From: a virus
DNA: 40,423 bases
IMG/VR virus record: IMGVR_UViG_3300033149_005223
Coordinates: 1-40,423 of that record
Direction: 5' to 3' (one strand)
In this document: positions 1,879-38,498 of the stretch, in pieces
Numbering within the stretch: position 1 is the stretch's first letter
How the letters are laid out: every line of letters begins with the position of its first letter
Position numbers and translations under genes: made by a program
Notes under the pieces: generated by a model
Seen by the model: only the letters and a program-made list of their open reading frames with translations
Databases searched by the model: none
Told to the model about the DNA's origin: nothing

Positions 1879-2021
1879 TTTTCCCTCTCCTTTCTTTTCC
1901 CTTCATTCATTAGTAAAATAAGTTTTTCTTTTCCTATCCCACACCAGAAACAATATTGGGAACCTTTCCCCCCTTTATAAATCTTTCCGCACCTTTTACA
2001 TCTTTTCCAATACCATCTCAT
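1875..2021 (-). CDS. 48-aa zinc-ribbon protein
   Basis: Short gene with two CxxC knuckles, CKRC at residues 8-11 and CFWC at 24-27, a minimal zinc ribbon in a basic protein. Its ATG overlaps the recombinase stop (TAATG) and its TGA overlaps the next ATG (ATGA), so it is tightly coupled on both sides. This coupling plus the paired cysteines is the main reason to accept such a short gene. The role is unknown; small basic ribbons often bind nucleic acid or protein partners. Confidence 0.75.
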   Translation of the reverse strand: MRWYWKRCKRCGKIYKGGKGSQYCFWCGIGKEKLILLMNEGKRKEREK

Positions 2022-2614
2022 TATTGCGTCATCCTTTCCCAAACTTTCCCGTTGAATTTTTCTATTTCCGATTTAAGTTCTTCAAAATTTATATGAGTAT
2101 ATTCTCTAGTAATATCTATTTTTTTATGCCGGGCAAACATTGCGGTTTCTACAATATCTTTACATTGCCGGTAAAAATCGCTAATAGCGGTATGCCTTAA
2201 ATCGTGAAATCTATAATTCTCTTTAACTCCATTTTCTTTCAGGCAATCTTTCCAGAGACGCCATAAAGTTTTCCTGCTCATAGGAATTTTGCCGTGCCGA
2301 TGAGCAGAAAAAAGATAACCTTCTGTCCTACCCAGAAAATTGACAATATAATCAAGGATGGCTTCTCTCAATTTAACCGGTAGATAAACTTCCTCATACC
2401 GGTTCTGAACTTTTTTGCTGGTATTTTTGACTTTAACTTTAATAACAGATTTGACTCTTAACTTATCTCCTTCCCAATAAGTTATGTCTTCAATTTTCAG
2501 GGAGAGAAGTTCGGAAATCCGGAGAGCGGTTGATAAAGCAATCCGCACCGCCATTTCCAATCTTTTATCTTTAAACTGAATTTTTAAATCAGATGGAAGG
2601 ACTTTTATTTTCAT
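2021..2614 (-). CDS. Tyrosine recombinase/integrase, catalytic domain only, 197 aa
   Basis: Full set of active-site residues: R32 in TALRISELL, H137-x-x-R140 in FHDLRHTAIS, H163 in ARHKKIDI and the nucleophile Y172 in REYTH; a lysine in the beta hairpin near residues 57-70 is likely. Such enzymes cut and rejoin DNA at specific sites for integration, excision or multimer resolution. Typical phage integrases have about 350 aa with arm-binding and core-binding domains. This one starts only about 30 residues before the first catalytic Arg, so both N-terminal domains are missing. No truncated remnant is seen upstream, where a 58-aa membrane-protein gene overlaps its start. No att core can be defined. 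Confidence 0.85.
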   Translation of the reverse strand: MKIKVLPSDLKIQFKDKRLEMAVRIALSTALRISELLSLKIEDITYWEGDKLRVKSVIKVKVKNTSKKVQNRYEEVYLPVKLREAILDYIVNFLGRTEGYLFSAHRHGKIPMSRKTLWRLWKDCLKENGVKENYRFHDLRHTAISDFYRQCKDIVETAMFARHKKIDITREYTHINFEELKSEIEKFNGKVWERMTQ

Positions 2615-3297: not shown

Positions 3298-3480
3298 TCA
3301 TTCAAATAATTTTCTTTCCGCCTTTTTAACCTTTTGACGGTATATATAAATTTCAAGATTTTCTTTACTGGTCAATGGTAAATTTTCATCCCGGCATTTT
3401 TTGTTTTGTTTTTCCACCCACCGGTTATATCTTTCCAAATCCGCTTCAGTGGGATTAACTAATTGAAATTCTTTATTCAC
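3298..3480 (-). CDS. Hypothetical protein, 60 aa
   Basis: Small charged, probably helical protein, not recognised. It overlaps the end of the 190-aa gene by 8 bp and ends 13 bp before the next start. One cysteine only, no membrane segment. Confidence 0.55.
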   Translation of the reverse strand: MNKEFQLVNPTEADLERYNRWVEKQNKKCRDENLPLTSKENLEIYIYRQKVKKAERKLFE

Positions 3481-4045
3481 TTATTGCCTCCTTGATTAAA
3501 TTTAAAGCTTCTCCTTTGGTTAATTCCTTTCCATCTTCTAAACAATACCATCCCGGAGAATTTTTCAGCTGGGAATAAGGTTTACCATATTTCATTTTAT
3601 ACCATTTCCCCAATTGCCCAGCAGACACACCCAACCCTTTACATAAAACCCAAAATCCTAATTCTCTAATTGATTGAAATTCAGTTAAATAATCAAAAAG
3701 CTCAAAATCATCTAAATAAACTCCTAGTAAATCTTGAATACTTATTTCCGCAATCACTTCTGCTAAAGCAGAATCCACCCAGGGTTCTGGCTCATTTTGA
3801 ATTTGCTCTATTTTCTTTTCAATATAAACTGGAGGTTTTTTAATCCGGGAAGGGTTTTTCTGCTTTAATAATTGATAAAACCATTCCCGCCATTCAATTC
3901 TATTCCACTTTTCCATACCATTGCGATAATAAACCCAACCTCGGAGCCTGAAATTCCATTTAAAACCATATTTTTTTAACTTTTCTTTAATACTTTCCGG
4001 CACGCCCCGGATGATAATCCTTTTCTGGCTGAAAATCATATACAT
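3473..4045 (-). CDS. Hypothetical protein with GVPxSIKEKLKKYGFKWN domain, 190 aa
   Basis: Residues 10-45 (GVPESIKEKLKKYGFKWNFR followed by LRGWVYY) resemble the short alpha/beta module with conserved G-x-K-W-x(n)-G-W found in DUF5710-like and primase/ArdC-associated phage and plasmid proteins. A linker and an all-helical C-terminal half follow. ATG 4045 lies 2 bp after the upstream stop; an alternative ATG is two codons on. Domain assignment is tentative; a DNA-processing role would suit the context. Confidence 0.6.
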   Translation of the reverse strand: MYMIFSQKRIIIRGVPESIKEKLKKYGFKWNFRLRGWVYYRNGMEKWNRIEWREWFYQLLKQKNPSRIKKPPVYIEKKIEQIQNEPEPWVDSALAEVIAEISIQDLLGVYLDDFELFDYLTEFQSIRELGFWVLCKGLGVSAGQLGKWYKMKYGKPYSQLKNSPGWYCLEDGKELTKGEALNLIKEAISE

Positions 4046-4047
4046 TC

Positions 4048-4377
4048 TTAATACCCCGCCATCATTTCAGCTGAATAATCAAAAGCTTCTTGTCTCCAAT
4101 AATTAAAGAGAAAATCCCAATCCACTATATCCCAACATCCATAAAAGTCCATCCAGATTTTTCTATAATTTTGCTTTAATTCCCTTTTTATATTTTTCTT
4201 AAAATTTTGTAAATTGTTGTTAATAACGAGATTAACTACCCGCCGGTAAAGGTAATTATAAGTTAAGATATAATGATTTAACAGCCAGCTGGCAAAATTC
4301 GGATAACCTAAATAATCCTTTTGTGCCATATCATCATAATTTTTCTTACATTCTCTTACTAAATCTTGCTTTTTCAT
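4048..4377 (-). CDS. Hypothetical helical protein, 109 aa
   Basis: First gene downstream of the 1.2-kb gene-free region, with a strong AAAGGAGGGAGG site before ATG 4377. The sequence is Tyr-, Trp- and Asn-rich and mostly helical, with no recognisable family. Being closest to the suspected origin, it could be an origin-associated or regulatory protein, but that is position-based inference only. Confidence 0.6.
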   Translation of the reverse strand: MKKQDLVRECKKNYDDMAQKDYLGYPNFASWLLNHYILTYNYLYRRVVNLVINNNLQNFKKNIKRELKQNYRKIWMDFYGCWDIVDWDFLFNYWRQEAFDYSAEMMAGY

Positions 4378-4520
4378 TTTTCCTCCCTCCTTTTTTTACT
4401 CATTCCACTCAATTTATTATGCAACCCAAATGCCAAATATTCATTTTTCTGTCTAGAAAAATTATAAATATTTGAAAAACAAAAAATAAAAATTTCATTT
4501 GTTAACTAAATTACAATCCC

Positions 4521-4574
4521 AAAATCAGCAAAAAACATCAAAATTATGCAAAAATTGTCAATAAAACTTGCAAA
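4521..4574. other. Phased A-tracts, predicted bent DNA
   Basis: Six runs of 3-6 adenines are centred near 4522, 4532, 4541, 4552, 4564 and 4573, a spacing of about 9-12 bp, close to one helical turn. A-tracts in phase bend DNA intrinsically. Such bends are common beside replication origins and strong promoters. Confidence 0.55.
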
Positions 4575-4644
4575 TTTTGACCAGATTTAAGTAAATACTT
4601 GATTTTATTAGCAATTTCCCAAAAGCAAAAATTACAAATCTTGC

Positions 4645-4664
4645 CAATACAATATCTTGTATTG
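4645..4664. repeat. Inverted repeat, 8-bp arms
   Basis: CAATACAA, a 4-bp spacer TATC, then TTGTATTG: perfect arms. It is flanked by TTGC (4641-4644) and GCAA (4664-4667). It could be a protein-binding dyad next to the bent DNA. Confidence 0.6.
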
Positions 4665-4684
4665 CAAAAAGGCAACACACAATC

Positions 4685-4735
4685 TTTTTCTTTCTTTCTT
4701 TTCTTTTATATATTTTCTTTTCTTTCTTTCTTTTT
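4685..4735. repeat. Perfect 51-bp polypyrimidine mirror repeat (H-DNA/triplex-forming)
   Basis: The plus strand reads, in run lengths, T5 C T3 C T3 C T4 C T4, then ATATA, then T4 C T4 C T3 C T3 C T5. The two 23-nt arms are exact mirror images around ATATA, and that centre is itself mirror-symmetric. A homopurine-homopyrimidine mirror repeat is the classic substrate for intramolecular triplex (H-DNA) under negative supercoiling. The symmetry ends at 4684/4736. Confidence 0.85.
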
Positions 4736-4773
4736 ATTAAAGGCCCTGAGAGCATGTAAGGCCCTGCCCTTAG

Positions 4774-4806
4774 TCTAAGATATCTTAGATATCTAAGAAT
4801 CTAAGA
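4774..4806. repeat. Two interlocked 16-bp palindromes plus an extra half-site
   Basis: 4774-4789 (TCTAAGATATCTTAGA) and 4783-4798 (TCTTAGATATCTAAGA) are each perfect palindromes and share 7 bp. A further TCTAAGA half-site is at 4800-4806. Overlapping dyads with a repeated half-site look like an operator or iteron block where bound dimers would compete or stack. Confidence 0.75.
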
Positions 4807-4885
4807 ATATATATATGTCCAATAATTAGAAAAAGATTAGAAATAAATTAAAAGTTTCTAATGATTGCTTAACTGACCCTGAAAG

Positions 4886-4900
4886 CAAACAAAGTGTTTG
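4886..4900. repeat. Inverted repeat CAAACA-AAG-TGTTTG
   Basis: Perfect 6-bp arms with a 3-bp spacer, 20 bp before the heptad array. A possible binding dyad; short enough that chance is not excluded. Confidence 0.4.
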
Positions 4901-4920
4901 GGTTTTAATCTAAAGGGGTA

Positions 4921-4983
4921 AGTTTTAAGTCTTAAGCTCCTAGCTTTTAGCTTAAAGCATCTAGCATTAAGTTATAAGCACCC
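4921..4983. repeat. Nine contiguous 7-bp repeats, consensus AGYWTYW
   Basis: Starting at 4921, every seventh base opens AGT or AGC: AGTTTTA, AGTCTTA, AGCTCCT, AGCTTTT, AGCTTAA, AGCATCT, AGCATTA, AGTTATA, AGCACCC. There are no gaps, and a tenth unit AGGGGTA precedes at 4914. The remaining columns are mostly T then T/C then A/T. Unspaced heptad arrays are known as binding sites of the ribbon-helix-helix protein omega of pSM19035 (different sequence), which serves as centromere and operator. A similar role here is inference. Confidence 0.75.
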
Positions 4984-5005
4984 TACAGGGGAAAGAAGGC
5001 TAGGA

Positions 5006-5036
5006 TTGGCAAGGGTTTGCGGGCTCGCTTTGCCAA
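5006..5036. repeat. Inverted repeat TTGGCAA...TTGCCAA with G/C-rich loop
   Basis: TTGGCAA at 5006-5012 pairs with TTGCCAA at 5030-5036 around a 17-bp interior containing GCGGGCTCGC. The same 7-mer half-site recurs at 4641-4647 and 5282-5288, so this may be a recurring binding site as well as a hairpin. Confidence 0.5.
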
Positions 5037-5199
5037 AAATTGATGGGTTATAATGAAAAGATTGAGGAAAATAAGGATAGAGTTAAATGTAAAAGATTAT
5101 TAAACTGCGATAAAAAAGCGTATTTGAGGAAATCAAGGGGTTAAATACCACCCGCCCTCCATTTTTCACGCCCGGGAAGTGCTAAAAACCCCCAAACCC

Positions 5200-5231
5200 A
5201 AAACAGACAAAAGAAGAGAATTGTCTATTTT
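5200..5231. repeat. Inverted repeat, 11-bp arms with one mismatch
   Basis: AGACAA (5205-5210) and TTGTCT (5221-5226) are separated by 10 bp, and after one C/A mismatch the arms continue for four more A-T pairs on each side. Could form a cruciform or hairpin, or bind a dimer. Confidence 0.45.
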
Positions 5232-5275
5232 GTTTGTAAGTGGTTGTTTTTATTTATTAGTAAGGTAATTAGTGT

Positions 5276-5298
5276 AGACTTTTGGCAAAGTCTTGCCA
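5276..5298. repeat. Two overlapping inverted repeats
   Basis: AGACTTT-TGGC-AAAGTCT (5276-5293) is a perfect 7-bp-arm hairpin. TGGCAA-AGTC-TTGCCA (5283-5298) is a perfect 6-bp-arm hairpin sharing its bases, so only one can form at a time. This repeats the interlocked-dyad design of 4774-4806. Confidence 0.55.
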
Positions 5299-5306
5299 GT
5301 TTTAGA

Positions 5307-5336
5307 CCCCTCCCCTGGTGCCCCCTCCGTCCCCCC
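5307..5336 (-). other. Potential four-run G-quadruplex
   Basis: On the minus strand the order is G6, ACGGA, G5, CACCA, G4, A, G4. Four runs of at least four G with loops of 5, 5 and 1 nt meet the usual quadruplex rule and would allow four tetrads. In such an AT-rich genome this is striking. The G-rich strand is also the sense of leftward transcripts, so an RNA quadruplex is possible too. Confidence 0.7.
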
Positions 5337-5443
5337 TGATATATATAAGTAGCCACTTTCAATACACGCCCCATTTTTTGTTTCGGGGTATTTTTAGCCT
5401 TTTGCTGTTAAATCAGGGGAATTTTTCCCTTTAAAAAGAACAA

Positions 5444-5487
5444 CTTATCTAAAAACTGACAATTTTTGTCATATAAACTGACAATTT
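5444..5487. promoter_or_regulatory. Repeated TGACAA sites with a weak candidate leftward promoter
   Basis: AAACTGACAATTT occurs twice as a direct repeat (5453-5465 and 5475-5487). TGACAA-TTT-TTGTCA (5457-5471) is a perfect dyad between them. On the minus strand ATGACA (5472-5467), 17 bp, then GATAAG (5449-5444) forms a moderate -35/-10 pair reading left across the gene-free region. The arrangement looks like operators over a promoter. Confidence 0.4.
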
Positions 5488-5540
5488 ACATATGGCTATA
5501 TACCCCTTAGTCAGACCAGTTCTCTCAAAACCTCTCTCGC

Positions 5541-5563
5541 AACCCCTTGATACAAGCGGGGTT
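5541..5563. repeat. Hairpin-forming inverted repeat AACCCC...GGGGTT
   Basis: AACCCC at 5541-5546 and GGGGTT at 5558-5563, with inner TTG/CAA pairing. It lies 44 bp past the stop of the 77-aa gene in the direction of its transcription. It could attenuate leftward transcription, but no T-run follows, so a terminator is not assured. Confidence 0.4.
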
Positions 5564-5606
5564 CAGAAAGGGGCAATTTAAATTAGAGGGTATTTTGAGT
5601 GGGGTT

Positions 5607-5840
5607 TCAGAGTTTTACTTCCTGTTTGATTTGTTTTAGGGTGAGAGGGTATGGATTTTTTAGGTAAAATTTATCTTCCAATCTGATTAAAAGCTTCTTT
5701 TGTTTTTTAATCCAAGAGAGATTTGGGTATCTATGGCAGATTGGCTCATCTGGAAACCAATTTCTTGAGGGCAATTCTGGGTCTAGTGGGCAAAGTGGGG
5801 CGGAGCAATGTTTAAAGCTGGGGCAGTTTTCCATTTTCAT
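5607..5840 (-). CDS. 77-aa Cys-rich phage protein (CPxxxxCxxPLCPLD type)
   Basis: First gene behind the strong minus promoter. I use ATG 5840, preceded by AGGAGGAGAAAG; the in-frame ATG at 5894 would lie in the promoter. The N-terminus has the pattern C-x5-C-x5-C-PLD and a later Cys in EPICHRYP, a motif seen in short uncharacterised phage and bacterial proteins. The C-terminal half is basic. Being the first leftward gene, it may be an early regulator. Function unknown. Confidence 0.7.
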   Translation of the reverse strand: MKMENCPSFKHCSAPLCPLDPELPSRNWFPDEPICHRYPNLSWIKKQKKLLIRLEDKFYLKNPYPLTLKQIKQEVKL

Positions 5841-5865
5841 CTTTCTCCTCCTATTTTTTAAGCGA

Positions 5866-5894
5866 ATAATAGCAAACTTCAGGCAAGCTGTCAA
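5866..5894 (-). promoter_or_regulatory. Sigma70-type promoter for the minus (early) operon
   Basis: Minus strand: TTGACA (5894-5889), 17-bp spacer, TATTAT (5871-5866). Near-perfect consensus. The start point would be near 5859, giving a leader of about 20 nt that contains the AGGAGG of the 77-aa gene. Confidence 0.85.
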
Positions 5895-5906
5895 GGAAAA
5901 GTTTGC
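5872..5906. promoter_or_regulatory. Candidate operator dyad over divergent promoters
   Basis: GCAAACTT (5872-5879) and AAGTTTGC (5899-5906) are perfect inverted 8-bp arms 19 bp apart. They fill the leftward promoter spacer next to its -10, bracket its -35, and cover the -35 of the rightward promoter. A repressor bound here could control both operons. Confidence 0.6.
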
Positions 5907-5930
5907 ATTTTAAAAATTTTCCCTTATAAT
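5902..5930 (+). promoter_or_regulatory. Rightward promoter giving a leaderless late mRNA
   Basis: TTTGCA (5902-5907), 17-bp spacer, TATAAT (5925-5930). The perfect -10 box ends 8 bp before the terminase small-subunit ATG at 5939, and there is no Shine-Dalgarno. Transcription would begin at or within two bases of the start codon. Confidence 0.6.
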
Positions 5931-5938
5931 TAAACTAG

Positions 5939-6262
5939 ATGTCTAAAATAGTTAAATCTCCGGGTGAGGCTATTCAGATAACTAGGGAAGATTTTTTAAA
6001 AACCTTGCAGGGTGCTGGTATTACTCCTCAATATTTATCCCATAAATTAGCGGAATTATTAGAGGCAAAAAGTGAAAAAGTTCGGCTTCAAACTCTGGAA
6101 CTAATAATAAAGCACATTATCGGGTTTAAGAAGGGTGATGGGGTTAATATAAATATTGCGCAGGTCTGGAGCACTTTAGAAGATTTAGGGAAAAGGGCAG
6201 AGGATAGAATTTCTCCTGTGAGAGAATATCAATATCGGGAAGATTTAACTGAAGATGGATAA
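5939..6262 (+). CDS. terS: Terminase small subunit (probable), 107 aa
   Basis: First gene of the rightward operon, overlapping the large terminase start by 8 bp. A helical core (LSHKLAELLEAKSEKVRLQT and following) is typical of DNA-recognition small terminase subunits, which bind pac/cos DNA and load it into the motor. The family is short and poorly conserved, so position is the main evidence. The start codon has no ribosome site and lies 8 bp after a TATAAT box, pointing to leaderless translation. Confidence 0.7.
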   Translation: MSKIVKSPGEAIQITREDFLKTLQGAGITPQYLSHKLAELLEAKSEKVRLQTLELIIKHIIGFKKGDGVNINIAQVWSTLEDLGKRAEDRISPVREYQYREDLTEDG

Positions 6263-7817
6263 CAAAAAATTAGCAGAATTAAGATATTTTTATGCTACTC
6301 ATTTTTATGAATTTGTAAAAGATATTCTTGGTTATAAAGATTTAACTGAACATCCTCATCGGGAGTTATGTAATTTTCTGGTTGATACTCCCGGTGATGG
6401 TTCTAATCGCACTTCTAATATTCAGGATATGCCTTTGTCTTCTTCTAATAAACCCAGTAAAGATAAAAGACGATTGGGGGTTTTTATTCCTCGTGATAGT
6501 TTTAAGACCACTATTTGCACGGTGAGTTATCCTATTTGGAGATGGATTAGAAACCCCAATTTAAGAATTTTAATCGGCTCTCATAACATAGATAAAGCTA
6601 GAGAATTTTTACAGGAGATAAAAGACCAGCTTTCCCAGAATCAAAAATTGATTGCATTATTTGGAGATATGGGGAAAGCCTGCCGGGAAAAGAATGCCAC
6701 TTGGTCAAGAGATGCTATTCAATTATTTGACCCGGTTAAAAATCAATATGTGCCTTTTCGGAATATGAATTCCTGCCGGGTTATTGGTATGGGCACTTCT
6801 TTTACTGGCTTACACCCGGATATAGCTATATTTGATGATTTGGTATGTGAACAAAATATCAGCTCTCCAGATATGCTTGAAAAACCTAAAACTTTTTTAA
6901 GGTATATAGAACCTTTATTGAGTTTCGGCACGGAGATTATTATTGTTGGAACTCGGTATCATTGGGGAGATGCTTATCAGGAAATTATAGAAGATGGGAT
7001 GTATGATGTAATTTTAAGGTCGGCTATAAATCCGGATGGTTCTTTATGGTATCCTGAAAGGTTAAATTGGGAATATTTAAAATCTGCCCAGAGAAGATTG
7101 GGGACTTATATTTATTCCTGTCAATATTTACTTAATCCCGTCCGCCCGGAAGATGCTATTTTTAAAGAAGACTGGATAAATCGTTCTGTTTTTAAATCCT
7201 GCCCGATAGATGTAAATGAATTAACCCGAATAATGGTTATAGACCCGTCCGCCCGTTCCACTAAAATTAGCGATTATACCGCTATTTTAATTGCTGGTAT
7301 GGATGTGCAGGGAAATATCTGGGTGTTGAGAGCTTTTAATAAAAAATCCCGTATTGAGGAATTGATAGACGAAATTATAGATATTTATAAAGTCTGGAAG
7401 CCGGAAGCTATTGCAGTGGAAAGTAATGTCTTTCAAGCTTTAGTTAAAGATATTATTGAAATGAAAGCGGAGCAAAGAGGGGAATTTATCAATATTCGCC
7501 CGATAGAAACTTCCACCCGGCAAAGTAAAGAGTGGAGAATAAGAAGAATTATCCCCTTACTGGAAGCTGGGAAAATAAAAATTCTAGAAGAATGCTGGGA
7601 TTTAATTACTGAGATGAGAAGATTCCCAAAGGGAAGTGATGATTTGCTGGATTGCCTTGCTAATGCCTGTAAAATATTGGTTCCCCCAGAAGAAGTTCAA
7701 GAACCTAATTGGGAAAAAATAGAAAAAGAATATAAAGAATCCTGGGAAATATGTAAAGGAATGAAAGAGTTAGAAGACCCGGAAGTTGACTTATTTCAAA
7801 ATTTATGGAATATTTAA
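6255..7817 (+). CDS. terL: Terminase large subunit, 520 aa
   Basis: DNA-packaging motor ATPase and nuclease. The ATPase part shows a divergent P-loop at about 78-86 (IPRDSFKTT), Walker B at 189-196 (DIAIFDDL) and a coupling motif at 229-234 (IIVGTR). The RNase H-like nuclease part shows D330 (VIDPSAR), E389 (AVESN) and D463/D466 (DDLLDCLAN). Length and order match standard phage large subunits. It cuts concatemers and pumps DNA through the portal encoded two genes downstream. A shorter insertion rich in Ser and Asn (residues 50-66) precedes the P-loop. Confidence 0.95.
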   Translation: MDNKKLAELRYFYATHFYEFVKDILGYKDLTEHPHRELCNFLVDTPGDGSNRTSNIQDMPLSSSNKPSKDKRRLGVFIPRDSFKTTICTVSYPIWRWIRNPNLRILIGSHNIDKAREFLQEIKDQLSQNQKLIALFGDMGKACREKNATWSRDAIQLFDPVKNQYVPFRNMNSCRVIGMGTSFTGLHPDIAIFDDLVCEQNISSPDMLEKPKTFLRYIEPLLSFGTEIIIVGTRYHWGDAYQEIIEDGMYDVILRSAINPDGSLWYPERLNWEYLKSAQRRLGTYIYSCQYLLNPVRPEDAIFKEDWINRSVFKSCPIDVNELTRIMVIDPSARSTKISDYTAILIAGMDVQGNIWVLRAFNKKSRIEELIDEIIDIYKVWKPEAIAVESNVFQALVKDIIEMKAEQRGEFINIRPIETSTRQSKEWRIRRIIPLLEAGKIKILEECWDLITEMRRFPKGSDDLLDCLANACKILVPPEEVQEPNWEKIEKEYKESWEICKGMKELEDPEVDLFQNLWNI

Positions 7818-10596: not shown

Positions 10597-10884
10597 ATGC
10601 CCTGGTCAAAAGCGGAAAGAATTGCTTATGGAGGATGGGGAACAGAATTACAGCCTTTCACCAAAGCAGCTCCTCTTCCAATGTTGGTAAAGGGAAAAAC
10701 AACTAGGAAACCAACCTCTCAATTTGTAGGATTACCGGTTCCTATGATTCCCTATGAAAGATTAAAGGAATTACCTGAATATTGGTATATTCAGGTAAAA
10801 AGGGGAAGAAAAAAAGGAGATACAATAAAGGTCAAAAATCCCTGGTATGAGGCAGCCGAGAGGCTTCGTAATAAAAGGAAATGA
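10597..10884 (+). CDS. Small basic hypothetical virion protein, 95 aa
   Basis: A very basic protein (C-terminus AAERLRNKRK) with a Pro/aromatic-rich middle (GLPVPMIPYERLKELPEYWY). It has an excellent AAAGGAGGT site. Not recognised. Position between portal and scaffold suggests a minor head component or assembly factor. Confidence 0.65.
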   Translation: MPWSKAERIAYGGWGTELQPFTKAAPLPMLVKGKTTRKPTSQFVGLPVPMIPYERLKELPEYWYIQVKRGRKKGDTIKVKNPWYEAAERLRNKRK

Positions 10885-26375: not shown

Positions 26376-26650
26376 AAAAGGGTGCTTGTGAGTGGACAGC
26401 TTTTATTGGAGATAAAAAATACAAAGGCTGGGTAAAAAGAATGTGCTTATGTTTAGAGAAAGTTCCAGTAAATTATCATTCAGATAATTTCCAACCCTCT
26501 CGCCCCCAAAAACATATTTTCCCTAATCGGATAGAAATCCGATGTCGTAAATGTAAAAAATTATGGGGTATTCTCTGGCTGGAAGAAATGGACATAAACC
26601 ATCCCGTTAATTCTTCTTCTGGGATGGAGAAAATGCCAGACAATTCTTAA
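26363..26650 (+). CDS. Zinc-ribbon-like protein, last gene of the late operon, 95 aa
   Basis: Cys pairs CLC (about 28-30) and CRKC (about 60-63, in RIEIRCRKCKKLWGILWL) suggest one zinc ribbon, recalling Com-like phage translational activators of Mu (weak). Overlaps the peptidase gene by 13 bp. Its 3' 90 bp are antisense to the end of the ASCH gene on the minus strand. Confidence 0.6.
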   Translation: MERLKKGACEWTAFIGDKKYKGWVKRMCLCLEKVPVNYHSDNFQPSRPQKHIFPNRIEIRCRKCKKLWGILWLEEMDINHPVNSSSGMEKMPDNS

Positions 26651-26886: not shown

Positions 26887-27936
26887 TTAATAATAACCCA
26901 AATCTTTAAGTTTTTCCTTAATTTTTTCATCTTCTTTTTTATCAGAGGAAATTAAACAATAAGTTTCCCAACTAGCTAGAGGATGTTTGGGGTGGATAGA
27001 GGGTAATAATTTTACCATATCATAAAAAAATAAAGAAATGCCATCTATTTTTAAAGGTTTATATTTACAATTTTCTTTCCAATTATTAGGATTTTCTTTC
27101 CATTTTAACATTGATATAAGCGTTGGGAAAATATCCAAATCTCTAGTTTTATAGACGATAGCCCCCCTTTCCCCGAATTCTTTCCACCACCATACTAAAG
27201 GAATTCTTCGGACATTAGGATTGTAATAATCGCCAGAATGGGTATGGATAGCGTCTCTGGGGGTTTCCCGAAAGCCCTCCCCGTGGTCAGCTGTCAAAAT
27301 AATCATATCTGCCCATTCTATAAAATTCTGCATTTCCGGGGAATTTAAAAGAAAATCATCTAACTCATCCAATCTTTTCCTGTATTCTGCTTGCCATTCT
27401 TCAATTTCATTTGGCGGGGGATTTTCTCTTAATTCCCGCAATCTTTGCTCAAATTTTCTAAACCACTCGTGGGGATGGAGAAAATGAATATAAACAAATC
27501 CCGGAGTTTTTCTCTCTTTCTGGATTATTTTCAATCCTTCTTGAATATTATCTAAATTTAATCCGTCTATTTTCTTATTAACTAATTTCCCCCAGCCAGC
27601 TTCTTTACCGCCAAATCCTGCCCCACCTAGCCAAGCAGTATAATAGCCGAAGTTTTTCTTTAAATAAGTAAAAATATTGGGAACCCCCCAATCTTCCCAA
27701 TGTTCTATGGTAGAATATTCTATCTTCCAGAGCTGGTGATGGATAGGTTCCATACCCGTAAATAAAGACCCCAAACAGGGGAAAGTCCAGCTATTACTAG
27801 AAAAATGATTGTGGAATATATAACTGCCCCCTTCCTTTCTTTCCAGAAGGAAATCTATAAACTTCATACCCGGATGATATGCATAATCTTGTCTTAAGGC
27901 ATCCACGAGAATAAATAAAATATTAGGCAATTTCAT
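26887..27936 (-). CDS. Sulfatase/alkaline-phosphatase-superfamily enzyme with Thr nucleophile, 349 aa
   Basis: Opens with NILFILVDALRQD (metal Asp at 12), has SWTFPCLGSLFTG at 49-61 where T51 aligns with the formylglycine Cys of sulfatases, and TADHGEGF with D217/H218, then HTH at 231-233. Thr at the nucleophile site is typical of phospho-group transferases and phosphatases of the superfamily rather than true sulfatases. No signal peptide or membrane span, so it is cytosolic. Overlaps the triple-GT gene by 4 bp. Likely trims or adds a phosphate group on a glycan or lipid; the substrate is unknown. Confidence 0.8.
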   Translation of the reverse strand: MKLPNILFILVDALRQDYAYHPGMKFIDFLLERKEGGSYIFHNHFSSNSWTFPCLGSLFTGMEPIHHQLWKIEYSTIEHWEDWGVPNIFTYLKKNFGYYTAWLGGAGFGGKEAGWGKLVNKKIDGLNLDNIQEGLKIIQKERKTPGFVYIHFLHPHEWFRKFEQRLRELRENPPPNEIEEWQAEYRKRLDELDDFLLNSPEMQNFIEWADMIILTADHGEGFRETPRDAIHTHSGDYYNPNVRRIPLVWWWKEFGERGAIVYKTRDLDIFPTLISMLKWKENPNNWKENCKYKPLKIDGISLFFYDMVKLLPSIHPKHPLASWETYCLISSDKKEDEKIKEKLKDLGYY

Positions 27937-30284
27937 TGGTCTCCTCCTTTAATGTAATGAAATTGGGGAATGATTTGATTAAGCACTTGGCAAATTTCTT
28001 TAGCTACTTGATGTAAATAATGCTCTGGGGGATAAATCTCCATAATTCTTTCCCACAAGATTTTTCCTTTTCTTAAATAATGATTCCCCAGAGCCTTAAT
28101 CGCCAGCGGATGTCCCCTTCTAGTGGCATATTCTAAAAATCTTTCTGCTTTTTCCCACTTCCCATCATTTAAATATTGCATTCCTTCCCTATACCATAAA
28201 TCAGGATTCTGGGGGTCTTTTTTTCTTTCTCTTTTTAATATCTTTAAATATCTCTCTGCCTTTTCCCTTAATTTGTTTTCATTCTCTAAATATCCATAAT
28301 GGTGAATAACAATATCACTATCTCCTGTTAATAGGTCATCTTTGACAATGAACTGCTCGTGAACCTCACCTTCCCAGAGTCCAGCTTCCCTTCGGTGAAA
28401 TCTAATATTTTCCTGCAAAGCATACCCCCCATCTTTGAAATAATTTATAATTTTTACCCAGTATGCTGATATTTCGGGATTATCTGCTAAAGTTCTTATT
28501 TTAGACCATTCTTCTGGTTTTAATTCCTCATCAAAATCCAGCCAAAATATCCATTCAGTAGTAGCATAACTTAATGCCAGATTGCGGGCTTCTGAAAAAT
28601 CATTAGTAGGATGAGAATGTATTTTCGGAGTATAAATCTTGGCTCTATTTATTGAATCATCATCAGAGCCAGTATCTATAATTACTATTTCCCTGAAGAA
28701 AGCCCAGATATGTTCTAAAACTTTATCAACATTTTTCTCCTCATTTTTCATAATCATACATAATCCAATATCATTCTTTGGCTGGAATTTTCTTAAAGTT
28801 ATGGTAGGGCTGATTAGATGACTATAATCCCCCCGTCCGCCGATTAGTTCAGGTCTTTTATCTTGGTCTATCTCCCTATACCAATTAAATTTTCTTTCCC
28901 TATCTTCCCTGCTTATATATCCATAATGTAAAATTCTGAAACTGGTTAACCTTTGATAACCATTGGGAATTTCGGGGATATTCCCGCAATGTAATCCCTG
29001 TTCTGTTCCCCGTATAATCCATTGGTGAGGTTCTATTTTAAACATTCTCGCTCCTTTTATATTCCCCCAGACATCATCTATTCTGAAATATTCCTCACTA
29101 TCCCAGAAATTATACCAAGTAAATCCATAGGCTTTAATATGGGGATTGGGGGGCTTCATTAACCTTTCTACATCTTCTCTGGTTAATTCTGGTATTTCAT
29201 CTCCATCTATGGAAATCATCCAATCTTTTTCTATATCCGCTATATCAAACCCTAATTTTAAGGCTAAATTCCTTTCCGCTCGCTCATTAAAAGGCTCATT
29301 TGGGTAAATATAAGCAATAGTTTGAATTTTAGAATATTTTACTTTCAATTCCTCCATTTTATTTATCCAAGTCTCTGCTAAAGATAAATGCCTTATATCC
29401 ACTAATAGAACGATTTTATCTGCAAATTCGGACACTTTTTTTAAACTTTTTTCTAAATATTTTTCATCTGCTCTTACTCTATACACTGCAATAAGTTCAG
29501 GTTTCCAGTCTTTTCTTGATTGCCAATATTTGTCAATAAATTTCTGTCTGTTAGCCATCCCTCTCTGAATTTCAGGAATTTTATCCAGAGTAGGTGAACC
29601 TTTATGCCAGATATAAACATTATTGGCAATTATACTTTTCCATCCTTTTGCCTGCGCCCTTAAAACCAAATCGTTATCATCATATCCCGCCGGGAAAAAT
29701 AAATCATCCAAACCGCCAATATCTTGATAAACTTTTCTATTTAATAAAATACAAAATCCTGATAAAAAATGAGTTAAGGTAAAATCGGTCGGAGAATTAA
29801 GCGATTGGGAATATTGATTAACCGCTTCTTGGGTAGGGGGATGATATTGCCAGTTAATTATTTTCTGAGGACCTCCTACATTATTACTTACCGGTCCCAC
29901 TAATCCCACCTGTGAGTGTAATTCCTTTTCGGCTATATCCATTGCCATTATCATTCTGGTAAAACAATCTGGGGATAAAATTACATCATCATTTAGCATA
30001 ACTAAATAATCTCCTTCTGCTTTATCTAATCCCCAGTTAATTGCCCCTGTCCAGCCAATATTGGTTTCAGGGTAATGAATTCTACAAAAAAATCCCTCTT
30101 TATTTAAAAGGTCAAAAAAAGGCTGAATTTTATTTTTGTATTCTTGGTCTTTTCTGGGGTCATCAATAGGCTGGATTATAAACAATAGCTCGTGATATTG
30201 AGGCTCTAAACAAGATATAATACTCTGGGTTAAAAGTATTAAGTTTTCCAGATTATCCCAATTGGGAATAATTATGCTAATCAT
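27933..30284 (-). CDS. Three-domain glycosyltransferase (GT2-like x3) with C-terminal TPR, 783 aa
   Basis: Domain 1 (about 1-260): ISIIIPNWDNLENL, NIGWTGAINWGLDKA, metal motif LNDDV at 97-101, and FFPAGYDDNDLVLRA. Domain 2 (about 262-500): IAVYRVRADEKYLEKSL and ISIDGDE at 357-363. Domain 3 (about 505-665): IGLCMIMKNEEKNVDKV, IDTGSDDDS, and WLDFDEEL at 581-588. Residues 668-745 hold TPR-like helices (LWYREGMQYLNDGKWEKAER). Each domain has an Asp-rich metal motif, so one polypeptide could build several linkages of a glycan. It overlaps its neighbours by 4 bp on both sides. Targets could be host surface glycans, virion proteins or DNA. Confidence 0.85.
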   Translation of the reverse strand: MISIIIPNWDNLENLILLTQSIISCLEPQYHELLFIIQPIDDPRKDQEYKNKIQPFFDLLNKEGFFCRIHYPETNIGWTGAINWGLDKAEGDYLVMLNDDVILSPDCFTRMIMAMDIAEKELHSQVGLVGPVSNNVGGPQKIINWQYHPPTQEAVNQYSQSLNSPTDFTLTHFLSGFCILLNRKVYQDIGGLDDLFFPAGYDDNDLVLRAQAKGWKSIIANNVYIWHKGSPTLDKIPEIQRGMANRQKFIDKYWQSRKDWKPELIAVYRVRADEKYLEKSLKKVSEFADKIVLLVDIRHLSLAETWINKMEELKVKYSKIQTIAYIYPNEPFNERAERNLALKLGFDIADIEKDWMISIDGDEIPELTREDVERLMKPPNPHIKAYGFTWYNFWDSEEYFRIDDVWGNIKGARMFKIEPHQWIIRGTEQGLHCGNIPEIPNGYQRLTSFRILHYGYISREDRERKFNWYREIDQDKRPELIGGRGDYSHLISPTITLRKFQPKNDIGLCMIMKNEEKNVDKVLEHIWAFFREIVIIDTGSDDDSINRAKIYTPKIHSHPTNDFSEARNLALSYATTEWIFWLDFDEELKPEEWSKIRTLADNPEISAYWVKIINYFKDGGYALQENIRFHRREAGLWEGEVHEQFIVKDDLLTGDSDIVIHHYGYLENENKLREKAERYLKILKRERKKDPQNPDLWYREGMQYLNDGKWEKAERFLEYATRRGHPLAIKALGNHYLRKGKILWERIMEIYPPEHYLHQVAKEICQVLNQIIPQFHYIKGGDQ

Positions 30285-30943
30285 TTAAATTCTCCTTCCC
30301 AGTTAATAATTCCTATCCCTCCCCAATATGGATGAGTATAGTCAACAAATTCCTTATATTGATATTTTGCTTTTATTTCTCCCCAGAAATGAGCAACCTG
30401 AATTTCCCGGGAGGGGCGGAAAACAATCTTTTCCCATTCGGCTATATCGGGAATAATAATTTCGTTTCCTAAATATCTTTCCGTTAAGGTTTCTTGGGCC
30501 TTTCCCTTTATTAAATCTATTCCCCAGATAGGTAAAATATCGTGGAAAGCAATTATTCCCCCTGTTTTTACCAGAGGAGAATAATTCTTGAAATCTTGCT
30601 TTACTAATTCATATTTATGGTCTCCGTCTATAAAAAGCAGGTCAAAATATTCCAGATTTTTTTGCTTCATTATTTCTTTTATCCATTCTAATGTTCTTTC
30701 ATCCTGCGAATTGGCAGTAATTTTAATAATATTTTTAACATTTCCCCATTCAGAATTTCCAAGTTCTTTATCTATGGTAATTACCAATCCCCCCAGTGTG
30801 GAGAACATTAGAGCGGTTCCCCCACGCCAAGTGCCTATCTCCAAGACATTTTTTACATTCCGGAATTGAATATACTTAAAAAATTCTTTAAATTCTTTTT
30901 CCTTTTGAATCCAGAGAGATTTGGCTTTTTCCCAAATATCCAT
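30281..30943 (-). CDS. SAM-dependent methyltransferase, CmcI/Methyltransf_24-like, 220 aa
   Basis: Class I motifs: LEIGTWRGG at 34-42 for SAM binding, acidic D58 after strand 2 (VITIDKE), FDLLFIDGDHKY, and GGIIAFHDI. The IDGDH and HDI residues suit a metal-assisted O-methyltransferase as found in sugar and antibiotic pathways. Lying between two glycosyltransferase genes, it most likely methylates a sugar of the same glycan. Confidence 0.85.
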   Translation of the reverse strand: MDIWEKAKSLWIQKEKEFKEFFKYIQFRNVKNVLEIGTWRGGTALMFSTLGGLVITIDKELGNSEWGNVKNIIKITANSQDERTLEWIKEIMKQKNLEYFDLLFIDGDHKYELVKQDFKNYSPLVKTGGIIAFHDILPIWGIDLIKGKAQETLTERYLGNEIIIPDIAEWEKIVFRPSREIQVAHFWGEIKAKYQYKEFVDYTHPYWGGIGIINWEGEFK

Positions 30944-30945
30944 TT

Positions 30946-31584
30946 TTAAGTCCTTTCTATTTGCGGGAATTTATCTTTCCATTTTTCACATAATTTAATC
31001 CACTCCCGCCTGAAGTTATCCCCATCTATATGTATCCCCAATTTCCCGCCCCGATGTTCCAGTTTACACGGGAAAATATAATTTTTCAATCCCCTAGATA
31101 AAGCTTCTAGGCAAATATCCGCCCCATATTGGTGCCAATGATTGAACCTCTCATCAAAATGAGGATAAAAAATATCAGGACGGATAGCTAAAAAACATTC
31201 ATCTAGGGTTTGAACAGAAATAGGTTTTTCGATATTTTTTGCCCAAGTCATTTCCCCATTATATCTAGCCACTATCCCCCCTACTCCATATTGCCAATTT
31301 AAGGCATATTGCCAAAAATTTTTCCAGGGATTATCTTCTGAGCTGAATATATCATCGTGGCAGAAAATAAATAAATCGGGTAAATCATTCTCAAATTGTT
31401 TAATCGCATAATTATATGCCTTGCTCATAGATTGCCATTGGGTATTATTTCCATTCTTCATTAAAAAACTTTCAATTTGTAGTTCATTTTTATAAATCTC
31501 CCTGGTTTTTTCTATTAGACCACCAGTTAAAGATTTATATTTCTCTGGGTCATCGGAAACCGTGATAAAAATGATTTTTTTCAT
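30946..31584 (-). CDS. Glycosyltransferase, GT2-like (Glyco_tranf_2_5 type), 212 aa
   Basis: A compact GT-A fold: IFITVSDDPEKYKS at the N-terminus, QWQSMSKAYNYAIKQF, metal motif FCHDDIF, QTLDECFLAIRPD and HWHQYGADICLEALSRG. This set matches the short GT2-related family seen in capsule and lipopolysaccharide loci. First of a tightly packed glycan cassette (31584 down to 26887). Confidence 0.8.
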   Translation of the reverse strand: MKKIIFITVSDDPEKYKSLTGGLIEKTREIYKNELQIESFLMKNGNNTQWQSMSKAYNYAIKQFENDLPDLFIFCHDDIFSSEDNPWKNFWQYALNWQYGVGGIVARYNGEMTWAKNIEKPISVQTLDECFLAIRPDIFYPHFDERFNHWHQYGADICLEALSRGLKNYIFPCKLEHRGGKLGIHIDGDNFRREWIKLCEKWKDKFPQIERT

Positions 31585-36474: not shown

Positions 36475-36489
36475 TTTTTCACCCCCTTT

Positions 36490-36666
36490 TTAATTGGTTT
36501 CCTCCTCATAATTTTCCCCATCCTCCGAATAATCATAATCCCAATAATCTTCATCACAGCCTTTTACCAAACTTGCCCCACATTTAGGGCAATATTGGGG
36601 CTTGCCAAAAACTTCACTGGAACTAGGGACATATCCACATTCCGGGCAGTCATAATATTCACTCAT
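36490..36666 (-). CDS. 58-aa zinc-ribbon protein with acidic tail
   Basis: CPEC at 7-10 and CPKC at 26-29 form a rubredoxin-like ribbon (YYDCPECGYVPSSSE), followed by a tail of Asp, Glu and Tyr (EDYWDYDYSEDGENYEEE). The start overlaps the stop of the Gly/Arg-rich gene (ATGA). The acidic tail could bind the basic partner encoded just upstream. Confidence 0.75.
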   Translation of the reverse strand: MSEYYDCPECGYVPSSSEVFGKPQYCPKCGASLVKGCDEDYWDYDYSEDGENYEEETN

Positions 36667-36833
36667 TTTCTACCCTTCCCCCTTCCTTTACCTCCACCTT
36701 TTCCATAACCGGGACCACCTTTTTTACATCCACCTTTATTAGCCCCGCCTCGTTGACCACCGGGCATCCCCCTTCCCTGTCCCCTTCCGTCTCTAGGACG
36801 GGAAATTCCTCTAGGATTTTTTGATTTGTTCAT
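36663..36833 (-). CDS. 56-aa Gly/Arg/Lys-rich disordered protein (RGG-like)
   Basis: Contains repeated GR, RGG and KGG units (GRGQGRGMPGGQRGGANKGG, then GKGGGKGRGKGRK), with one Cys. It is fully low-complexity and strongly basic, like RGG boxes that bind RNA, G-quadruplex DNA or condense nucleic acid. ATG overlaps the DnaC-like stop (ATGA) and its stop overlaps the next ATG, so it is co-translated between a helicase loader and an acidic zinc-ribbon protein. Confidence 0.7.
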   Translation of the reverse strand: MNKSKNPRGISRPRDGRGQGRGMPGGQRGGANKGGCKKGGPGYGKGGGKGRGKGRK

Positions 36834-37387
36834 TTTCCACCTCCTTTTCTAAAGTTTTCCCAATCACACGGAATATATTCCCCGTTCTCTAATAATCTTT
36901 CAATTATTCTCGCGCCGATAAATTTTCTTAATTCCTTTAAAGTGCGATTGCTAATTAAAATGGTGGGAATTTCATAAGCATAACGCTCATCCAACACTTC
37001 AAATAAGTTTATTTTAAAAAGGTCATTATCAGGCAAGATATCAATTTCATCAATCACCAGCAAATCATAATAAATATAAGAGGGTTTTTTATTCCAGTTT
37101 TCTATGATACATTTCAACATTGGCAGGGCTTTAACATAATATCCCGGCGAAGCCTTTTCTATGATATAAAATTGCAATCCCCCGCAAGCTAGGGTTGTTT
37201 TCCCGGTTCCCGGAGGACCGCAGAGAATAATGTTTTTATCTTCTAGCAATAAATTTTTAATCTTTTCCCAAGCAGGTTTGAATTTTTCTCCTATAGCGGG
37301 GAAAGGATTATCCTTCGTAAACTTAAATCTGGGGGGGATATTAGCATTTCTCAAATACGATTTTATATAATACGGATGCACATCCAT
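36830..37387 (-). CDS. DnaC-like AAA+ helicase loader, 185 aa
   Basis: AAA+ ATPase with Walker A GPPGTGKTT at 57-65, Walker B LLVIDEID at 109-116, sensor ISNRT and a probable Arg finger in ARIIERLL. It matches DnaC/IstB-type loaders, which place the replicative helicase on the origin. No helicase gene is present, so it should load the host DnaB. It starts without a clear ribosome site, 7 bp after the preceding stop. Confidence 0.88.
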   Translation of the reverse strand: MDVHPYYIKSYLRNANIPPRFKFTKDNPFPAIGEKFKPAWEKIKNLLLEDKNIILCGPPGTGKTTLACGGLQFYIIEKASPGYYVKALPMLKCIIENWNKKPSYIYYDLLVIDEIDILPDNDLFKINLFEVLDERYAYEIPTILISNRTLKELRKFIGARIIERLLENGEYIPCDWENFRKGGGK

Positions 37388-37394
37388 TGTCTTA

Positions 37395-37868
37395 TTAGGT
37401 AATTACTATTTTTTGTTTTTCTTTTATGGCTTTTTCCAGCCACTTTTTGAGAATTTTTTTAGTTATTTTCTTTTCTGGAACTAAATCATATAATCCAATC
37501 CCCTGTTTGGGAATATCTAAAAAATCTTTCCGCCAATCGGGGGGATTCTCCCAATCATAGGGAGAATACCGAGTAAATACCATAAATTCTTCTAAATTTT
37601 TAATTGGAAGTGGGTCTCCCACTGGTTGAAATTCCACATATCCTAAAATACGCCCCATACTAAAAGGAGAACGGGGGGTATTATAATAAATTGGAATATA
37701 TTTTTTCCGCCAAATACCCCCATCTTTCCCCACCCAAAAATATATATACATTTGTTTTGGGGATAATTCTATCCACGCCCCTTTCAAAACAAACAAAAAC
37801 ACAAATAAATCAGAATATAAAATTTCTTCATTCGGTATAATCTTTTCTTTCAAATCCCTCTGCTTCAT
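37395..37868 (-). CDS. Hypothetical protein, 157 aa
   Basis: Start at ATG 37868, 8 nt after AAGGAG; a TTG start lies two codons upstream. Strand-rich first half (SDLFVFLFVLKGAWIELSP, YIYFWVGKDGGIWRKKYIP), helical end. Lies between the O-like initiator and the loader, so a replication accessory role is likely by context. Family unknown. Confidence 0.6.
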   Translation of the reverse strand: MKQRDLKEKIIPNEEILYSDLFVFLFVLKGAWIELSPKQMYIYFWVGKDGGIWRKKYIPIYYNTPRSPFSMGRILGYVEFQPVGDPLPIKNLEEFMVFTRYSPYDWENPPDWRKDFLDIPKQGIGLYDLVPEKKITKKILKKWLEKAIKEKQKIVIT

Positions 37869-38241
37869 AACCAAATCTCCTTTCCCGTCCGCTATAAAAA
37901 TTATTCAGAATCTTCTGGAGAGTATCAGGTCTTAAAAACCATTCTATATTAGCTCTCCAGCCGTGATTGTTTTTCCCTAATAAAAAATCTGATTCAGGGA
38001 TTAAATCAATAGCCTCTTTATATTTTTCTCTGAAAACTGGCTCCTTCCATCTAGCTCTAAACATTCTTTTAAATTTAGAACCTTCCGATAAGCTTTCCCA
38101 ATACCAGCCAGTAGGTAAATTGTTCTCTTTTGCCATTTTATTCCAAGTATCAACAAATTCATTATAAGCTCTGGCAATAGATATTTCCTTTTGCTGTTCT
38201 GGGAAAAGATATATAACTTTTGATATATTTTTTTTCACCAT
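37828..38241 (-). CDS. Phage replication protein O-like/DnaD-like C-terminal domain protein, 137 aa
   Basis: Residues 50-130 match the helical domain of phage replication initiators: FKRMFRARWKEPVFREKYKE, SDFLLGKNNHGWRANIEWFL, then RPDTLQKILNNFYSG (the W-x(n)-WLL-x(n)-KILxGxY pattern). This part binds the helicase loader or helicase. The usual N-terminal winged helix that reads the origin is absent or very short, so another protein may supply origin recognition. I start at ATG 38241, which overlaps the previous stop. Confidence 0.65.
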   Translation of the reverse strand: MVKKNISKVIYLFPEQQKEISIARAYNEFVDTWNKMAKENNLPTGWYWESLSEGSKFKRMFRARWKEPVFREKYKEAIDLIPESDFLLGKNNHGWRANIEWFLRPDTLQKILNNFYSGRERRFGYEAEGFERKDYTE

Positions 38242-38498
38242 TCGCTCGCCTTCGCTGCAATTAAGAATAATGCTAAAATAAAAATAACAAAAAAGGAGAG
38301 TCCCCAGTATTTCTCTATCCACTCTCCCGGATGACCGATTACAAGGTATGAAATTCCAAATATTACAAAATCAAAACCTAATATAATTCCCCAATATAAT
38401 ATAGAGCCGTGAGAAAAAGTAGGATATTGCCTTTCATATTTTATTGCAATTAGCAATATCAGAATTCCCAGTAATATAAAACCTGTTCCCACCCACAT
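38235..38498 (-). CDS. Three-span membrane protein, 87 aa
   Basis: Hydrophobic spans at about 3-19, 33-53 and 64-82 with short charged loops. CAGGAGGAAATAA lies before the ATG. It sits inside the replication genes, overlapping the initiator by 7 bp. Function unknown; may anchor replication at the membrane or act in exclusion. Confidence 0.6.
   Translation of the reverse strand: MWVGTGFILLGILILLIAIKYERQYPTFSHGSILYWGIILGFDFVIFGISYLVIGHPGEWIEKYWGLSFFVIFILALFLIAAKASEW

Follow-up and report, generated by a model that had tools for sequence, protein, structure and literature searches.

Genome organization

The window, i.e., the whole stretch of DNA that was analysed, comprises the 40,423 bases of IMG/VR virus record IMGVR_UViG_3300033149_005223. 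Its first and last 114 bases are identical, giving a circle of 40,309 bp. The contig join falls within a gene encoding a PD-(D/E)XK nuclease, so the 114-bp end repeat is better explained by overlap in the assembly than by a natural end, and the apparent 827-nt gap at positions 1-827 is this nuclease gene spanning the join. The genome is that of a complete, circular-mapping, T7-like podovirus of 40.3 kb. Its genes are arranged in two modules that diverge at 4.4-5.9 kb and converge near 26.6 kb. The plus-strand (late) module begins at position 5939 and encodes the terminase large subunit, followed by portal and capsid proteins, with matches to T7-like internal virion and tail proteins as well as an endolysin. 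Inspecting the terminase by tblastn has revealed matches in A-4L, cobaviruses, and other Zobellviridae. The minus-strand (early) module runs leftward from 4377, across the contig join, to 26.9 kb and contains genes for a DnaC-like loader, an O/DnaD-like protein, a tyrosine recombinase, nucleases, and sugar modification. The tyrosine recombinase (2021-2614, minus strand) has just 197 amino acids, and its match is essentially the catalytic domain. Its gene is located between gaps of 142 and 191 nt, one of which contains a 19-nt direct repeat (1964-2005), possibly used for attachment or resolution. The early module ends (26887-31584, minus strand) with a cluster of sulfatase-like, double glycosyltransferase, and methyltransferase genes, an unusual cargo for a 40-kb podovirus.

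The gene-free junction

The two modules are separated by the sole intergenic gap longer than 0.4 kb (Table 1), which measures 1229 nt, while the next longest gap is 355 nt. Within it, six-frame codon-usage scores do not exceed 0.17 bits per codon, while the neighbouring genes mostly score 0.2-0.6, in agreement with the original prediction that no gene resides here. Both border genes look real. The gene on the left (4048-4377) has a GGAGGGAGG ribosome-binding site and the gene on the right (5607-5843) a AGGAGGAG ribosome-binding site; as the codon-usage score of the latter is not positive, the ribosome-binding site and the support from a homologue count. This homologue, 43% identical, is encoded in a Dehalococcoidia contig (L095, 4511-4825), directly 3' of a phage-type primase/helicase gene, and the sequence match may possibly hint at the host group. 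The leftward promoter-like site at 5894-5866 meets the gene at 5607-5843 before reaching the gap. No intrinsic terminators were found in the gap or at the convergent junction, and the lack of any at the latter renders their absence from the gap uninformative. No DnaA boxes are present in 4378-5606.

Table 1 Elements of the divergent junction, its surroundings, and the genes discussed with it
Feature	Position	Strand	Remarks
Gene-free junction, with the minus-strand early module to its left and the small ORF and plus-strand late module to its right	4378-5606		Without coding signal in any of the six frames
Most AT-rich 200 bp of the genome (79.5% A+T)	4411-4640		Includes the sharpest predicted bend (~4540)
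TGACAATT site at the left bend	4553-4560	-	Two further sites at 5457 and 5479
Perfect pyrimidine-rich mirror repeat, 51 bp, 25-nt arms	4685-4735		Potential H-DNA (triplex)
Least stable 50- and 100-bp segment of the genome	4771-4870		Nearest-neighbour energies; candidate unwinding element
Four TCTWAGA heptamers, spacing 9/9/8	4774-4806		Putative protein-binding iterons
Ten consecutive WAGNNNN heptads	4913-4982	+	WAG every 7 nt
Inverted repeat TGGCAA-N4-TTGCCA	5283-5298		Adjoins the C-run cluster
Strongest G/C-run cluster of the genome, with G-quadruplex motif	5307-5336	-	Candidate packaging-end edge, by comparison with cobaviruses
Second strong predicted bend	5400-5490		Direct and inverted TGACAATT sites (TGACAATTTTTGTCA, 5457-5471)
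Small Cys-rich protein gene, 78 aa	5607-5843	-	Early orientation, late side of the gap
Best sigma70-like promoter, TTGACA-17-TATTAT, TG	5866-5894	-	Directed leftward into the gap
Divergent promoter-like site, TTTGCA-17-TATAAT	5902-5930	+	Upstream of the terminase genes
Terminase large subunit	6255-7817	+	phrog_38, E 1.8e-87; Terminase_6C; near the start of the late module
DnaC-like helicase loader	36830-37387	-	phrog_50, E 2.9e-31; IstB_IS21
O/DnaD-like replication protein, C-terminal domain only	37828-38322	-	phrog_19658, phrog_10469, phrog_345

DNA elements within the junction

The original prediction described bent, easily unwound AT-rich, triplex, heptad, and quadruplex elements in this region, and all of these are recovered. 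Using a wedge model, the strongest intrinsic curvature of the whole genome is predicted at ~4540 (42-bp arc) and at ~5430-5445 (84- and 126-bp arcs), i.e., both within the gap, and the mean predicted curvature of the gap exceeds that of 99.7% of equal genome blocks. The least stable 100 bp and the highest A+T content of the genome also fall within the gap. The mirror repeat is perfect and the only long one present, as no other in the genome has arms of at least 13 nt, and shuffles of the region reach at most 12. It consists of two tracts in which a C follows every 3-5 T, and since such C-spaced T tracts would ease partial symmetry, the shuffles probably overstate its rarity somewhat.

The TCTWAGA heptamer occurs in four copies within 33 bp and nowhere else in the genome, where 5-10 copies are expected; codon-preserving shuffles of the genes gave a mean of 4.9 copies and never reached zero in 300 trials. 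In an unbiased scan of 7-mers, TCTWAGA obtained a p value of 2.5e-9, compared with 1.5e-5 for the best control window. Its absence from the other 39 kb may reflect a protein site that is kept private, or avoidance for another reason. The WAG heptads form the best period-7 array of the genome (z 8.1), which is also the highest z genome-wide across all periods from 6 to 25.

The strongest cluster of G/C runs in the genome is found at 5297-5336 and includes one of the only two G-quadruplex motifs of the genome. The G-cluster is located on the RNA-sense strand of leftward transcription, yet the following 100 nt contain just 7% G, lending little support to an R-loop. The palindromic elements that had also been proposed do not stand out, as the best ordinary hairpin in the gap has an arm of 8 nt against a shuffle mean of 7.3, which is not above chance, and TTGCCA sites are only mildly enriched. 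No perfect inverted repeat in the genome is longer than that at 10771-10798 (12-nt arms, loop of 4), which lies within a coding gene.

Genome ends in phages with related terminases

Protein-pattern scans with the terminase, the capsid protein, the 3476-4045 and 38703-39551 proteins, and the small ORF revealed no near relative, and a DNA search of phages no close one; as no close relative was found in the viral and genome collections, no element of the gap is shown to be conserved. An alignment-based terminase scan identified 80 distant relatives (28-34%), suited to map comparison only. In these, 31-35% of the region 0.5-3 kb upstream of the terminase gene is uncovered by genes, compared with 0-12% downstream, and part of this gene-poor signal may represent small genes, as the ORF caller skips genes below 60 aa. 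The junctions of the relatives contain no long mirror repeat (arms of at most 10), and strong bends are not common to them, curvature being ordinary with two partial exceptions (L026 and L054). Their contig ends show no single common place. Locating packaging ends from clustered contig breaks was abandoned, as near-identical contigs break at different places.

Direct terminal repeats are found in Anabaena phage A-4L (810 bp, verified in sequence) and in the Cobavirus/Zobellviridae phages ICBM1 (172 bp), ICBM2 (159 bp), and VpV262 (138 bp). All four phages display the same two-module map as the phage studied here, with the terminal repeat within the divergent junction, and the left end of RIO-1, the only end read, fits the same arrangement. 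In phages with annotated ends, the gene-free junctions span 784 to 1781 bp, and in A-4L the terminal repeat reaches beyond the junction into the early gene that comes first. On the late side, ICBM1 as well as VpV262 furthermore carry a small ORF in early orientation, resembling the gene at 5607-5843. Similarly, an ORF-free region between the two gene modules of SIO1 proved similar to terminal repeats, and cobavirus terminal repeats share a conserved G+C-rich 5' end (PMC6775973). In line with this, the top G/C-run cluster of the genome coincides with the 5' edge of the terminal repeat in ICBM1 and ICBM2, lies within about 130 bases of the record end in ICBM3 and P12053L, and is found inside the terminal gap in VpV262, so that a cluster at or near the ends is shared by the Zobellviridae examined. 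In A-4L, however, the top cluster lies outside the terminal gap. In VpV262 (L100), the top G-run site of the genome is a purine mirror repeat, GGGGGGAAAGGAAGGGGGG, at 45574-45600 in the terminal gap.

In podoviruses with related terminases and annotated ends, this junction thus carries the direct terminal repeat, and this main rival had been overlooked in the original prediction. The phage could use the gap solely as a genome-end junction, i.e., as a circularised direct terminal repeat with early promoters, and replicate from elsewhere or in a T7-like manner, the unusual elements then representing packaging or terminus and promoter architecture. This reading is somewhat unlikely. While the gene-free position between divergent modules, the G/C-run cluster inside the gap, the related type of terminase, and the T7-type terminase and virion-protein matches argue for it, the private clusters of binding sites and the easiest-melting DNA of the genome would be left unexplained. 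In addition, neither a long mirror repeat nor remarkable curvature is seen in the phages whose ends are known. The orientation of the cluster differs as well, with C-runs on the late-sense strand here and on the early-sense strand in cobaviruses, and the assembly, being circularised, shows no end.

Replication proteins and resemblance to known origins

The matches of the 36830-37387 protein confirm the DnaC-like loader named in the original prediction. The initiator-like protein fares less well: an O/DnaD-like match is indeed found, but covers only the C-terminal, loader-contacting part, and neither a DNA-binding domain nor a DNA-binding partner is evident for the 37828-38322 product. An ORF overlapping this gene (37395-37874) has no match. 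With a loader and an O/DnaD-like protein encoded, but no recognised DNA polymerase family in the proteins scanned, replication by the host replisome from a discrete origin is to be expected. The initiator/loader locus (36.8-39.6 kb) contains no strong short-period arrays, the one exception being repetitive DNA at 36.5-36.8 kb. The 355-nt gap at 36475-36829 shows a strong 6/12/18-nt periodicity and probably comprises small genes that fall below the 60-aa cut-off and encode proteins rich in Cys and Gly.

Cumulative GC skew, suggested as a check with the original prediction, reaches its minimum at 4746 and its maximum at 26464, both at switches of gene direction. At fourfold-degenerate sites, the GC skew of the coding strand is -0.06 for plus-module and +0.04 for minus-module genes, compared with +0.31 and +0.33, respectively, at codon position 1. 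As the fourfold sites lack a consistent G excess, the skew originates mainly from a purine bias at codon position 1. The minimum was accordingly rejected as origin evidence, being a coding effect that follows gene direction and locates no origin. The proposed role in partition is unsupported, as no ParA/ParB family was recognised among the proteins scanned. An origin is plausible in view of the private repeats, the easily melted DNA, the bends, the loader, and the O/DnaD-like protein, while the skew argument falls away and that of the initiator is weakened.

As in phage theta origins of the SPP1/lambda type, site-specific repeats are clustered in the gap (four TCTWAGA copies and ten heptads) and adjoin AT-rich unwinding elements (4771-4870, and at 4411). 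Two phage systems offer precedents. The origins of the lactococcal Ceduovirus phages (c2, bIL67) reside in non-coding DNA where divergent early and late blocks meet, carry a non-coding early transcript, and vary freely in sequence between groups (PMC7150918). The gap likewise is such a junction, with an early promoter-like site directed towards it across the 5607-5843 gene; c2 origins, however, need no phage proteins, whereas a loader and an O/DnaD-like protein are encoded here. In Bacillus phage SPP1, oriL and oriR combine direct repeats with an AT-rich unwinding element used by the initiator and the loader, and oriR occupies one of the longest gaps between SPP1 genes (PMC6316719). The repeats, unwinding element, and encoded loader of the present phage are similar, yet oriL is located within the SPP1 initiator gene, while the replication locus here has no strong array.

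An origin of the c2 or SPP1 kind could occupy the gap alone, with the packaging ends elsewhere. The private TCTWAGA cluster, the heptads, the unwinding element, the bends, the loader gene, and the lack of a comparable array in the replication locus favour it, as do both precedents (PMC7150918, PMC6316719). Nevertheless, it is an unlikely reading, considering that the examined terminase relatives with annotated ends have these ends in this very junction and that GC skew is uninformative.

The heptads also invite comparison with parS of plasmid pSM19035, where the omega site is WATCACW (PMC9499535). Both consist of contiguous 7-bp repeats, but WAGNNNN is a different heptad from the published omega site, and no ParA- or omega-like protein was recognised among those scanned. 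The gap might serve transcription only, as a set of operators and promoters for an early/late switch, e.g., with a ribbon-helix-helix repressor bound to the heptads like omega of pSM19035. The divergent promoter-like sites at 5866-5930 and the resemblance of the TGACAATT repeats and the heptads to operators point this way, yet the best promoters are outside the gap, 1.2 kb is long for a switch, and no ribbon-helix-helix protein was recognised among the scanned proteins, leaving this reading very improbable. Finally, a decayed gene or a structured non-coding RNA gene is scarcely credible, since the gap has no coding signal or remnant and no Rfam match, and its two short structured minus-strand stretches (z -3.4 at 5380, the best in the gap, and -2.9 at 5100) are within the range of controls reaching -3.4 and -4.4, for which the structured RNA reading was dropped.

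A probable junction for replication and packaging

A compact cis-acting control centre, as originally proposed, is well supported by the anatomy of the gap and by its map position at the divergent junction. From this anatomy, its non-randomness, and its position, all directly observed, we infer two functions. A replication origin is probable at ~4.4-5.0 kb, and by analogy with the phages above, a genome end probably lies near 5.3 kb. That the gap unites both in one cis-control junction of a T7-like podovirus is our preferred reading, held tentatively and at not quite an even chance; the concentration of non-random elements in 3% of the genome is in support of it. Against it count the lack of close relatives and of origin evidence from skew, the missing DNA-binding domain of the O/DnaD-like protein, the reversed strand of the C-runs relative to cobaviruses, the ordinary junctions and scattered contig ends of the relatives, and the distance to the phages with known ends, whose terminases are only 24-30% identical to that of this phage and which encode their own DNA polymerase.

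If origin and genome end are indeed combined, the left part of the gap (about 4411-4982) would constitute the origin, where a phage or host protein may bind the TCTWAGA heptamers and/or the WAG heptads. Flanking bent DNA would wrap the initiation complex, the AT-rich and mirror-repeat DNA would melt, and the DnaC-like loader together with the O/DnaD-like protein would load the replicative helicase of the host. Transcription running leftward from the promoter at 5894-5866 would cross the gap and may aid opening, as has been proposed for lactococcal phage c2 (PMC7150918). The G/C-run cluster near 5.3 kb would be positioned at or near the end of the packaged linear genome, where the terminase would cut at a short direct terminal repeat.

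The kind of gap is already known, namely the control and terminus junction of a two-module phage, and the novelty is its unusual set of DNA elements. It could be speculated that these represent a phage origin of a new type, combining a triplex-forming mirror repeat as melting switch, private palindromic iterons, a ten-heptad array, and a packaging end within one 1.2-kb locus, yet this is quite unlikely.

Should the gap be both origin and packaging end, it would make a compact natural system for testing how phages couple replication, transcription, and packaging in a single place, and whether H-DNA and quadruplex motifs have a role in a prokaryotic origin. The comparison also suggests a rule for uncultured phages with a terminase of this group, namely that their true genome ends should be sought in the ORF-free divergent junction, where in some groups the strongest G/C-run cluster serves as a marker.
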